DNA of 64,000 nucleotides from Bugula neritina (taxonomy: Eukaryota; Bryozoa; Gymnolaemata; Cheilostomatida; Bugulidae): positions 1,302,001-1,366,000 of the forward strand of contig OZ037771.1 in assembly GCA_964035545.1 (NCBI GenBank), in the 5' to 3' direction. Position 1 is the stretch's first letter. Every line of letters begins with the position of its first letter. Of the stretch, positions 44,931 through 50,900 are shown piece after piece. The notes below the pieces were generated by a model that saw only the letters and a program-made list of their open reading frames with translations, was not told where the DNA came from and searched no databases. Position numbers and translations under genes: made by a program.

Positions 44931-47900
44931 TTACTCCAAAAGAGAGAGTATAAACTCGAAGAGTGATTCGCCACACGTCTCATTAGCGTACAACCTGTTG
45001 ACATACTGAAATATGAGATTCAGCAGGTCTCCAGTGGTACAGTTCTTCACTTGGTCTACTACCTTCCCAAACTACAAGTTACAGACAACACGGTTAGCTT
45101 AGGAGAAAGCATGTGGTGCCAATCCTGTTTGGAAAAATAAGGGGTAAGAGTGGATAACTCATCCTATCTCTTGACTACAAATCATTTTTTATTCATTGTT
45201 GATGCACAATTATGAAATATGAAGCTAGTGTATCTATAATAATATACTATTTGTATTTATTTAGACTATTTAATAGGATTGGCTGATAACCCAGTTTGTG
45301 CCAGTGGATAAGCATGCTCAAAATGACAGTCTGAATGCATTACTTCACTGTCTGCGTGTATGATGTCATGAAGGAGTTGAGAGAGTTTATGATGTCATGA
45401 AGGAGTTGAGAGAGTTTATGATGTCATGAAAGAGTTGAGAGTTTATGATGTCATGAAGGAGTCAGTAAAAATAAAAAGTCTTATTTCAATAAAATGCATT
45501 TTGCAAGAGCAGTTTTAAAGTGTTTAAATTCATGTTGCTAGTTGTTAGTGTTGGCCTTCATATGTTTGTAATGCTGCATGCATAAAGAATTGTTGCTACT
45601 TGTTTTCAAAATCTCTAAAAGTTAATTTATAAGTTAATAGCATTGAAACTTGGTAAACCTATTTTAGGTTGAAAACTATAAAAAAAATGTCTTCCTCATT
45701 TACCTGTTCGTCAGCCAACCTTCTATTATTGGAAGGATAGTAAATCATCTTAGGACAGTCACTTTCAGTAGCAGCAATCCACTGCAATAGAGACTTGAGT
45801 TGGGGGTCACCACCAAACGCCCCACAACCCCAGTTACCCGTAGCAATTGGTTTCGGCCCAAAACCCACCTACAGAACAGAAAATCTTTGAAATTATTTAC
45901 AAAACAGACAAACACATCAGCATGAAATTTATGAATTTAGGTTTTCAAGAATTGTCAATCACCACAGAAACTAATACAGAAAAACCAGTCAAACTACCAG
46001 CAAGAAAGAAGCCACACAAGAATAAAGCTGAGAAAACCCAACCCTTCGAAAGGCAAACAAATCTGCAACCAGGAGAAAGGAACACACTGCTAATAAGAGA
46101 AACAAACTAATTGCCAGTAAAACAGTCTTAAACAATAGACGTAACGAGAAAAGGTGCAGTATTGGTGATGCAGTACAAAGGAGACAAAGATAATGGTTCA
46201 AGAAGAAGTATGCAGAGAACATTGGTGTGTGATGCCATAAGGAAGTTAATGTGATATGATGGTAGATGAGGTGACATCATGGGCAGGTGAGTGGGACGTC
46301 ATGAGCAGGTGAGTGTGGCATCATGAGCAGGTGAGTGTGACATCATGATCAGGTGAGTGCGGCATGATGGGCAGGTGAGTGTGATATGATGAGCAGGTGT
46401 GTTGACATCAGAAGATAAATATCATGAGTTTGGTATATCTGCAACATCAGTGTTTACATGTAAGCATGATTACATTCAGTCTTATTGCATCATATAGAAT
46501 AGTAATGCACTAGCAAGCGAAAAAGTTTTAAACCATTAAAAGTGAGTCAAGACACAAGATGATATAGTATACATAGTCTACTGAGAATTAGTTGAGCTTG
46601 AGTACTAAATGTGACACTTACATTTCTCTCTTGTCCATCACCGCAAGAACTTAGTTTTGTCTCGTCTTCTTCATTCAGATTAGATAGCTTACTCCTCTTT
46701 GGTTGCCGGAATGTTTTCTTCAGTGTTCTCAGCGAATCATGGAGAATGTTCTCGGCCGTGACCTCACTGAACAGAGCGAGATATTGATGCTGGAGCGGAG
46801 AGAAGGGGGGTGTTAGCTCAGAGAGCGGAGAGAAAGGGGGTGTGGGCTCAGAGTCGTGACCTGTCTCACTCAGGTTCAGTCGGAGTAGACGGCCAGAGTT
46901 GGCGAGATTCATGGCGGGAGATTCAGCCTCACTTTGGCTCTGGTGATCACCAGACTGTGACCTTGACACATCGAGGTGGTTTTGTGAGTTGAGTTCACCT
47001 GTTGACAAATCTGAAATAATGCAGCACAACGATAGCTGACGTCTTTACACAGCAGCTAGCAGTTGCTCAAAATATGCATAAATAAATCATTATAATAATA
47101 ATGTAGTATAACGTTCATCAGAGAAAATATAATTGTCAAAACAAGTACACACTTGAACTTTTATTTAAAATACAAAAAATAGTAAGTTTAAGCACCTGGT
47201 ACTAGGAGAGCAGCTTTGGAATCAGGTTTGACTTTGTCTATGGCTCTACCCCCAGAATGCTGCCTCAACTGATGCCAAAGTGGATCAGACGCTGCCCCGT
47301 GACTGGACGAGTGGACTGTCTTAGATCTGAGGCAGCGTTCATCGCCCGGACCTGTGAAACACACAAACTATGTTAGAGGTAAATGGCTAATAACAACGAA
47401 ACTTCCTCTGGAAAAGATGAAATCAGAGCACACTGAAAGGTAGAAACAGCCTTGACCTGCGGCAGCTCTATGAAACTCATTCCGGATATAATCAGAAGGA
47501 TTGGGAGTCTTTCTGTTGGAGTTTGGAGACCGAGTTCTAAACAGGACCAAAGGCTCACTACCTCTCCTTGGTACGGGTGTCAGACTATGACGTCTCGCAC
47601 CACTGGGGGCACTCTGTCTACGCCCGTAAAATGGTTGTCTACTCGCACTATCTACAAATATTGCATCATGACATTCTAAAGAATATTATTTTTCATTAAT
47701 AATATTTATTATTTTGTATTTAGAACATCAAGTATTATCATATATTTACAATATTTAGTAATACTATTATGTAGTGTAGAAATGTACAATCATTAACCCC
47801 CTAGACATACTTTGCCGTACTGTAGGCCATAACGTAAAATGACAGCCATTTTTAATGTGCTCGAGCTGAAATTTTCAAAGTGCGCTATTGGGCACGATCT

Positions 47901-50900
47901 ATGACACCTCATTGGACACTTATAGCCAATGAATTGACGTAAATGTCTTCCTGTCCAATAGCAGTGCTTGATCCTAACGTACCGCAATGCCGTACAGGAA
48001 GCTCTGACATTAGTAAAAATGGTTGATACTTTACGTTACGGCGTACGCTACGGCAAAGTGTGAATGAGGGGTAAATCAAACCAATCACAGGTAACCAATA
48101 AAATGCTAATATGGAGAGTAGAGGGGGCGTGACTTACTAGGAGATAACTTTGACGGACTCGGGATTGGTCGGCTGTACGTTTGTGTTGACCAATCGGAAT
48201 CATTCTCAGTTATGACATCACAACTAAGATTTGGAATACACCCAACTACCTGGAAAAAATGCATTAAAAATTAAAGTGTGTTGTATAGTTTAGCACAGTG
48301 TGTTGTATAGTTCACTACAGTGTGTCGTATAGTTTACTACAATGTGTTGTATAGTTTACTACAATGTGTCGTATAGTTTAATCTAACTTACGGCTCCTTT
48401 GTGGAGTTTCTCCGAGTCAGGAATGCTATTGGCAGCCTCATTCCTGAGTTCGGAGATTATATGAGTGAGGACTTTGTCGGACATGGCGGTGGCAGCGAGC
48501 AGGTCAGTTGAGGTCACGTTATTCTCTATGAAGAGTCGTCTTCTCTCGGAGATCTCCTTGCCGGCCAACCGCACTATCTCTTCACTCAGACTCTACAGAG
48601 AGGAGATAACTTTCTTGTGAGAATGTGAATTACTTTCTAGAAAAGTCCTACAGTGTTTTGACTGCAAACTCATGCATGACAAATATTAATGATACATTTT
48701 GTAATATGCAACATAGTATACTAGTATATAATTATTATAATTGTATAATCATAAACTCTGGTTATATTCACAATCCAATATAATAACATAATATTACAAA
48801 TTTTATAACTGCATAATATAAAATAATATACAATACATAATTGTATAATATACTATATAATAATATTGAGATATATACACATTTGCTATATTTATAATTT
48901 AATTGAGATATAAAACCAATTAGTATAGGGTTATGATAACCACACCGACAGCATAGGAAGACCATCACCTGGGCATAGGCATCTATTTTCTCTTTGATGT
49001 TGTCAGTCTGAGAGTCGAGTGACAGAACTGAGTCTCTGTTTACTGAAGTTGCAGAGTATATCTGTCTGGCAGCATTCACATCCCCAGATGAAGCTGTGCT
49101 GCCAGCCGCAGAGGTTGGTGTGGCAGCAACGGAGCAGCTGGATGTAAGAATATCGCTATTCATAGAATCGGTATTCCAACCCCTTTCTGAGAATGAGTCG
49201 CGAGGTTGTGGTTTGGCAGTGGAATTGCTACAAGTCACGGAGCATTCAGCTGTAGACTCAGGGCTGCACGTGGGCAAGTCTTTAGAGCTCAGTGGTGGCG
49301 TAGTATTTACGACAGCGCATTGTGGTGGTAAAACACGAAGGTCAGCGACAATATCCACCTCTAACTTCCTCTCCGCAGACACACCCATGCTGACTTGCAT
49401 GTCATGATGACTTTCAGCCGACAGCTGCACACTAACATTCTCCCCGGCATTTGAATTCTCAATTTCTATATCCACAGAGATTGCAAAGTCAGGAGGGGCA
49501 ATTCCTAAACGTGGCTGTGAAGTTATCCCTGGGGTGGTAGAGGACGGCGGTGTTTCTATAACATTGAGAAGATAAAATTCAAGGAACTGAAGTATGAATT
49601 ATCAGAACATTAAAAGCCAGACACAAACCGTAATTCAAGGTGGTACTGGTTCCACATTTCTTACCTTCTTCTTTCAGTGGGGCCAACACAGAACTACGAG
49701 GTGGGTACTCGGGTAAAGTAGTTAACGAATCTTTCAGCACTTCGCCGGCAACCTTCTCAGCATATTCCTCTACACAGAAGGGAGATTCACTTTGACATGC
49801 ACCAGCTACTGCTGGAGATGTGTCCGCTATTGTGCTGCTCTCACATACGGCTGGCAGATCAACTGGATGGTTGGAGTAGTCTGCGCACACCCCGTCTGCA
49901 ACATATAATTCAATCAATGAACCCACAGGCTAAACTCACCAATCAATGATATATCTAACAAACTCTTTCAGCTTTCTGATAACGTCAAGTTGAGTTCAGA
50001 AAGTTTTCTTAAAATTATTCACAAAACACTTTAAGAGCACATTTTGTGCCAGAGAAAGAGTTGGAAGGTTGAGAGTATAATGCAATACAATTTGAACATC
50101 AGAAGTTTTGCTTCAGTGGAATACTTGTCTTACAGAACCATACCATCAGTAGAGGTGGGTACGGGGGGCTCTGGACTACGCCCCGCAAGTTCAGAACACC
50201 TTCCAGTGATCTGTGCCAACTCAGATCTAATATCAGCCATAAGAGAAAGGGCTAAAGACTCAGCATACTGATGTATCATATCTGAAACATAACAGACAGA
50301 CATTTGCAGCTCCACTCCGAGTCCCACATCAAGATTGTGCTGGGAAATGCTAGCAGGAAGTAAAGAGCGGTACTTGGAAGAGGAAATAGAGTTAAGATGA
50401 ATGCATATACCTGTTTGGAGTGGAGAGTCTTTGGTAGGTGCCTCTGGTTTAGAGTTGGAAGTTCTACCATCTTTAGACTACAAGACGCTTTTATCAACAG
50501 TGTGTACAACTAGCAACAGTGTGTGTACAACTAGCAACAGTGTGTACAACTAGCAACAGTGTGTGTACACCTAGCAACAGTGTGTGTACAACTAGCAACA
50601 GTGTGTACAACTAGCAACAGTGTGTGTACAACTAGCAACAGTGTGTGTACAACTAGCAACAGTGTGTGCACAACTAGCAACAGTGTGTACAACTAGCAAC
50701 AGTGTGTATGCATGCAGTAAAACTTTATGTAGATGTAATAACAAAACATCCATCAGTCGAACTATAAGTAACAGAGAACGACAGCAAACAACTTACAAAC
50801 TATAATAGTCTAACATTAGGCTCTTCAATTAACCAAAACAAGCAGCTATTTCACTGCAACTCCACTGCTAAACCCACTACTACCTCTGCACACACAGATG

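Follow-up and report, generated by a model that had tools for sequence, protein, structure and literature searches.

What has become of a PARG gene when 700 open codons lie within the part that encodes its catalytic core, and what could these codons add to an enzyme that strips proteins of poly(ADP-ribose)? The question is raised by the PARG gene on the minus strand (about 55819 to 44931) of a 64,000-nucleotide stretch of Bugula neritina DNA (GenBank assembly GCA_964035545.1, contig OZ037771.1, positions 1,302,001 to 1,366,000), here called the window, whose coordinates are used throughout. We consider it probable that the PARG macrodomain is broken, at a variable loop before the phosphate-binding stretch, by a long module, the cassette, that anchors protein kinase A (PKA). 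This function, which the patterns in the sequence make likely for the cassette, was absent from an earlier first-pass annotation of the same DNA.

The enzyme part of the gene was read from the following features:

55630 to 55819, minus strand: exon 1 of the coding model, with a PHD finger (...YCSTCN; PF00628 at 24.1 bits, the cut-off being 24), in phase with the next exon
55021 to 55326, minus strand: N-terminal PARG exon, open in phase, with no Pfam match of its own
54121 to 54305, minus strand: N-terminal PARG exon with an unsure 3′ border (donor score −2.0)
53804 to 53850, minus strand: short, tentative PARG exon (acceptor score −5.9)
53208 to 53307, minus strand: PARG exon preceding the macrodomain, inside which the 8adj alignment begins (query residue 4)
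52718 to 52891, minus strand: PARG exon with the start of the catalytic signature (PARG_cat_C; alignment)
52124 to 52297, minus strand: PARG exon encoding the catalytic EE of the QEE motif as well as the TGY region (PARG_cat_C; alignment)
51320 to 51472, minus strand: final PARG exon upstream of the cassette, phase 0 (donor GAG/GTAAGT)
45704 to 45868, minus strand: first PARG exon downstream of the cassette, with the phosphate-binding loop (acceptor 9.5 by leave-one-out, top of its stretch)
44931 to 45071, minus strand: terminal PARG exon with the stop (exon reading)
44658 to 44663, minus strand: AATAAA 3′ of the PARG stop (sequence search)

With the cassette left out, these exons give a model of 544 residues, in place of the roughly 573 estimated earlier, its N-terminal borders being unsure. 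The model scores 200.8 bits against PARG_cat_C and its last 301 residues alone score 202.8 (Pfam, cut-off 26.3); the same 301 residues align over the cassette site to the solved PARGs 8adj (E = 3.3e-37) and 6oak (3.8e-37). The exon reading and the alignment thus bear out the proposal of the first-pass annotation that the flanking exons, ending at 51320 and starting at 45868, are both phase 0 and join into a PARG core. Both the GGG-X6-8-QEE signature and the phosphate-binding GAFG loop are intact in the alignment, the PARG_cat_C profile is matched from its position 2, and the exons of the PARG N-half lie upstream of the cassette. In human PARG, the GGG-X-QEE motif stands on one side of the active-site cleft and the G873AFG phosphate-binding loop on the other (PMC3519477). 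Because motif and loop flank the cleft, the cassette separates, in sequence, the two parts of the protein that make up the active site. The PHD exon (55630-55819) is in phase with the PARG exons, which suggests a PHD-PARG fusion. Minisatellites occupy two stretches of the PARG introns, 50500-50707, which stops shortly upstream of cassette exon 1, and 52330-52603.

Between the two flanking exons lie nine exons with GT-AG borders; they enter and leave in phase 0 and contain no in-frame stop, as the first-pass annotation had described for 50477 to 46622. By the borders used here, their lengths (67 + 138 + 231 + 587 + 201 + 112 + 219 + 156 + 389) amount to 2,100 nucleotides, that is 700 codons and not the 692 counted previously:

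50411 to 50477, minus strand: cassette exon 1, phase 0 to 1, the weakest exon of the cassette (acceptor 1.5 bits)
50282 to 50410, minus strand: open 129-nucleotide intron, maybe a retained intron or an exon (coding score −0.16 against +0.30 and +0.32 in its neighbours)
50144 to 50281, minus strand: cassette exon 2 (exon reading)
49665 to 49895, minus strand: cassette exon 3 (exon reading)
48969 to 49555, minus strand: cassette exon 4, 587 nucleotides, open (exon reading)
48392 to 48592, minus strand: cassette exon 5 (exon reading)
48138 to 48249, minus strand: cassette exon 6 (exon reading)
47457 to 47675, minus strand: cassette exon 7 (exon reading)
47196 to 47351, minus strand: cassette exon 8 (exon reading)
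46622 to 47010, minus strand: cassette exon 9, phase 0 (donor AAT/GTAAGT; the frame beyond the donor scores as non-coding, −0.62)

At the stop rate of the introns of this gene (0.066 per codon), an open run of 700 codons has a probability of about 2e-21, and one as long as the longest exon (195 codons) a probability of 1.6e-6. Codon scoring, with a model fitted to the PARG exons, gave a positive in-frame mean in eight of the nine cassette exons. Cassette exons 1 and 2 are separated by an intron (50410-50282) that is also open in frame and holds an in-frame ATG, and its retention would give 743 codons; when 5,000 intron pieces of 129 nucleotides were drawn at random, 602 were likewise open. Another in-frame ATG lies at 50279 within cassette exon 2. 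Cassette exon 9 holds a 30-bp duplication (46793-46853) that repeats the motif TPPFSPL.

The consensus of PKA-anchoring helices has been given as LxxxAxxIVxxAIxxA (PMC3682517). Four candidate helices, W1 to W4, were chosen by eye in the cassette with this published consensus in hand and were scored with two matrices, one built from the helices of P0005, a PARG from a EukProt transcriptome, and one from four published anchoring peptides; a reciprocal matrix was built from the window helices. The candidates, together with a cluster of PKA consensus sites, are:

50226 to 50276, minus strand: helix W1, tentative (published-peptide matrix 7.8 bits, P0005 matrix below 2.8)
49723 to 49773, minus strand: helix W2, the strongest (P0005 matrix 24.5 bits, published-peptide matrix 16.2)
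48986-48969 plus 48592-48560, intron between excluded, minus strand: helix W3, over the exon 4/5 junction (11.2 bits with the P0005 matrix; 6.9 with the published-peptide matrix)
46730 to 46780, minus strand: helix W4, tentative (9.3 bits with the P0005 matrix; 1.3 with the published-peptide matrix)
47551 to 47622, minus strand: triple PKA consensus cluster RRQSAP...RRHSLT...RRGSEP, in cassette exon 7

The score of W2 was reached in none of 10,000 shuffles with the P0005 matrix and in 5 of 10,000 with the published-peptide matrix. Three non-overlapping matches as high as those of W2, W3, and W4 (P0005 matrix) did not occur in 10,000 shuffles, nor did the scores of W2, W1, and W3 together (published-peptide matrix; 0/10,000). 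Judged from these matrices, W2 and W3 fit the A-kinase anchoring consensus with both and W1 and W4 with one each, and W2 has the same spacing as RIAD, an anchoring peptide selective for RI (PMC4526808). The sole Pfam match of the cassette at E ≤ 1 was SmAKAP, a PKA anchor, at helix W3 (E = 0.043). Of eight helix peptides scanned singly against Pfam, two (W3 and helix 1 of P0005) gave a weak match to SmAKAP, one (W4) hit an unrelated family, and the other five had no match; three of W1 to W4, tried singly against the PDB, gave only unrelated weak matches (best E 0.87). Three RRx(S/T) sites lie within 24 residues of the cassette and none in the PARG part; three within 30 residues arose in 3 of 20,000 shuffles, and three or more anywhere in 243 of 20,000. 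The RxxSxP form of these sites presumably resembles a 14-3-3 site.

Does any other PARG carry such helices at this position? A search for PARGs gave 1,560 matches, the best 120 of which were listed and aligned with the window PARG, and the counts that follow refer to these 120. Linkers at the cassette site measured 8 to 121 residues, many of them 49-81 and three 105-110, and plants were among the PARGs that carry them (for example P0096 and P0049); the earlier remark that no PARG with an insertion here was known is therefore superseded. The longest linker, of 121 residues, belongs to P0005, where it lies in frame in the same loop and holds the helices VASYADSLSGEIIHSAL, LKEFADKLASKVISEAI, and LDEFASEVARNVLKSVF at residues 262, 299, and 322, with a weaker fourth, CQSWADELISEVTSSAV. 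P0005 ranked first among the 120 PARGs with the window-helix matrix (24.9, the next being 10.3), and with the published-peptide matrix it scored 17.1 against 11.6 for the top of the other 119. An AlphaFold2 model of P0005 built from 42 sequences had a mean predicted local distance difference test (pLDDT) score of 83, scored at least 90 in 25 of the 35 blocks of ten residues that lie outside the insert, and predicted the insert as four helices with pLDDT 51-67; it is compatible with a tethered, mobile module hanging off an intact enzyme. P0005 resembles the window PARG in its in-frame insert at the same loop and in helices of the same register. It differs in that its linker has 121 residues against about 700, so that the similarity is at helix level only, and in that the linker has no RR pair and hence no RRxS site, unlike the cassette. 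A search with the P0005 insert (512 candidates) recovered P0005 alone. Since the best 120 of 1,560 matches were examined, further PARGs with such inserts may exist.

Inclusion of the cassette in the PARG mRNA is the best reading of these data, and it is favoured because of the symmetric phases, the exon-9 donor, the acceptor at 45868 and, above all, P0005. The preference of the first-pass annotation for inclusion over a nested gene is thereby supported, mainly by the in-frame insert of P0005 at the same site, with the nested gene retained as less likely. Such a gene, AKAP-like and separate, would lie on the same strand in the PARG intron, with a promoter in 51319-50478 and an end before 45868. 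The weak exon-1 acceptor is consistent with it, candidate ATGs lie at 50470, at 50279, and in the open 129-nucleotide stretch, a terminal exon could use the acceptor at 46062 or 46086, and some animals have many nested genes (Amphimedon 3,358, Sycon 5,032, but Ephydatia 0; PMC10282587). The missing ATG of the first cassette exon, which had been held against a separate gene, excludes less than it seemed to, because an ATG exon in another frame (50470-50374) can join exon 2 in phase. It was confirmed that the minus strand from 46621 to 45869 has no AATAAA, nor any ATTAAA; this is weak evidence because 1,492 of 5,000 random 753-nucleotide minus-strand stretches also have neither. The donor of exon 9 is good (6.9) and the frame beyond it scores as non-coding, and helices in frame at the same loop of P0005 would be an odd coincidence if the cassette were a gene apart, which makes the nested gene unlikely in our view.

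Two products from the one locus, a skipped PARG and a transcript that starts at an internal promoter in intron 51319-50478 and runs from the cassette into the C-half, would leave an AKAP11- or SPHKAP-like protein without the N-half. This layout matches that of AKAP3, AKAP4, AKAP11, and SPHKAP (PMC11377751), in-frame ATGs stand at the 5′ end of the cassette, and the donor at 46622 and acceptor at 45868 are good. Moreover, when a free-standing PARG C-half was sought in the genome (216-Mb assembly, 295 contigs), only the PARG of contig C2 and contig C68 matched beyond the window (E ≤ 10). Against two products stand the P0005 protein, which unites helices and both PARG halves, and the window intron, which offers no sign of a promoter; we rate this arrangement as quite unlikely. 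It is very unlikely, lastly, that the cassette belongs to PARG with helices that dock another protein with a dimerization/docking (D/D) domain, such as DPY-30 of nuclear methyltransferase complexes or a ROPN1/SPA17-type protein, and not PKA. AKAP helices are also bound by D/D proteins that are not kinase subunits, DPY-30 among them (PMC8339350), the N-terminal PHD finger hints at chromatin, and there are several D/D exons in this genome, but the clustered PKA consensus sites of the same insert and the RIAD-like register of W2 both point to PKA.

Several observations weigh against a PKA-anchoring cassette within PARG. As to the helices, W3, W1, and W4 taken singly fall within the range of the shuffles, the W3 and W4 scores with the P0005 matrix having been reached in 252 and 719 of 10,000, and support for W1 and W4 comes from one matrix each, compared with two for W2 and W3. 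The SmAKAP match, at 15.3 bits, is below the cut-off of 27; a 233-residue fragment containing W3 had no Pfam match at E ≤ 1, and for six of the eight helix peptides Pfam gave no AKAP match. As to the gene model, inclusion is read from genomic DNA alone, and another frame, interrupted by stops, outscores the cassette frame on codon use in five of the nine exons, which is why the lack of stops is the stronger evidence of the two. Cassette exon 1, with its acceptor of 1.5 bits, is second in rank among 45 phase-compatible linking exons, and the 5′ join of the cassette is consequently unproven. PARG_cat_N was not detected in the 544-residue model (Pfam, E ≤ 1) and is present in 40 of 42 aligned PARGs, a result on which the unsure N-terminal exon borders bear. 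Scoring of 7,995 candidate proteins (385-1,225 in length) gave the cassette no relative at E ≤ 1. P0005 is the sole comparison PARG found with such an insert; in the tree it and the window PARG, which has a long branch, fall in one weak group of 8 rows (79/90) and are not sisters, so the two inserts may be independent. The AKAP_110 match of the C-half (11.5 bits, see below) is also under its cut-off of 25.

A known domain was considered as an identity for the cassette and rejected, given the lack of relatives among the 7,995 proteins scored (E ≤ 1) and in the PDB (E ≤ 10). There is no paralogue of the cassette in its own genome either, where only its own exons matched at E ≤ 10.

Candidate partners are encoded elsewhere in the assembly. 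A D/D-domain exon on contig C5 (L020, C5:3449671) is followed downstream on the same strand by cNMP-binding matches at C5:3439447 and C5:3436135, and one on contig C3 (L023, C3:9956798) by matches on the same strand at C3:9959565 and C3:9963738, so that in both cases the cNMP-binding matches lie 3 to 13 kb downstream. We take the former to be RI-type and the latter RII-type. The second PARG of the genome (L002, G000:C2:17406052-17408039) has a short linker, YSNKESPIDI, with neither intron nor insert at the cassette site. The contig C68 locus (L001, G000:C68) is one of several in which TAA and TAG but not TGA interrupt conserved domains, the others being on contigs C150, C131, C58, C46, C289, and C91; translated with the ciliate code, C68 gives a PARG, and ciliate DNA therefore seems to be present in the assembly. 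A tRNA gene lies in the window at 43855-43940 (Rfam, 61.4 bits), for which ARAGORN gave no amino acid.

How might an enzyme with a PKA-anchoring cassette work? The module would be long and probably mostly disordered, and its short amphipathic helices would bind PKA through the D/D domain of the kinase's regulatory subunits. Once anchored, the kinase could phosphorylate the RRxS cluster of the same insert, possibly also PARG or PARG-bound proteins, and so influence PARG activity, thereby tying signalling by cyclic AMP (cAMP) to poly(ADP-ribose) removal. Splicing would include the cassette (1,244 residues in the model) or skip it (544 residues) with the frame unchanged; as both outcomes keep the frame, two isoforms are possible. 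If this is true, PKA anchoring and poly(ADP-ribose) turnover would meet in a single enzyme, and a splice-controlled switch between a plain and a kinase-scaffolded PARG is predicted. A literature search, which kept to sources other than subscription papers and preprints and was judged largely by titles and the starts of abstracts, turned up no description of an anchoring insert in a PARG, nor a precedent for an enzyme that unites the two functions.

Compared with PARG as defined in Pfam (PF05028), the window protein has the same macrodomain core, GGG-X-QEE signature, and phosphate-binding loop, and it differs by about 700 residues inserted before that loop, by an N-terminal PHD finger, and by the undetected PARG_cat_N. 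Its helices share the register h-x-x-(Y/F)-A-x-x-(L/V)-x-x-x-(I/V) with smAKAP (PF15127) and RIAD-type peptides; unlike the cassette, smAKAP (a small membrane protein, per Pfam's name) and RIAD (an engineered peptide) are not part of an enzyme.

The closest parallel in layout is offered by the anchoring proteins AKAP3, AKAP4, AKAP11, and SPHKAP, whose C-terminus corresponds to the PARG C-half and whose N-half is reported lost (PMC11377751). The C-half of the window protein matches the end of the AKAP_110 profile (PF05716; 608-676 of 690), and AKAP_110 is the third most frequent Pfam family in the 42 aligned PARGs, 10 of which matched it at E ≤ 5 (best 0.0037); the 801-residue cassette plus C-half had no AKAP_110 match at E ≤ 10. 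An AKAP_110 search of this genome gave no match, nor did it in any control genome, so this is no sign of absence. No similarity was found between the window protein and the AKAP bodies of the four proteins. If the proposal holds, it would supply an origin for their PARG-like C-termini, with helices entering the PARG loop first and the N-half being lost later. Tentatively, and at somewhat less than an even chance, the window gene may be an intermediate that has survived to the present, a PARG whose catalytic motifs are intact, which is also a PKA anchor and in which cAMP and PKA gate poly(ADP-ribose) removal, AKAP3, AKAP4, AKAP11, and SPHKAP having descended from such a form through loss of the N-half or transcription without it. 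In all four, as in the window gene, the PARG C-half follows an anchoring or anchoring-type region, and the N-half that they have lost is present in the window gene; we infer that the order of PARG N-half, AKAP-type helices, and PARG C-half fits an intermediate on the way from PARG to AKAP.

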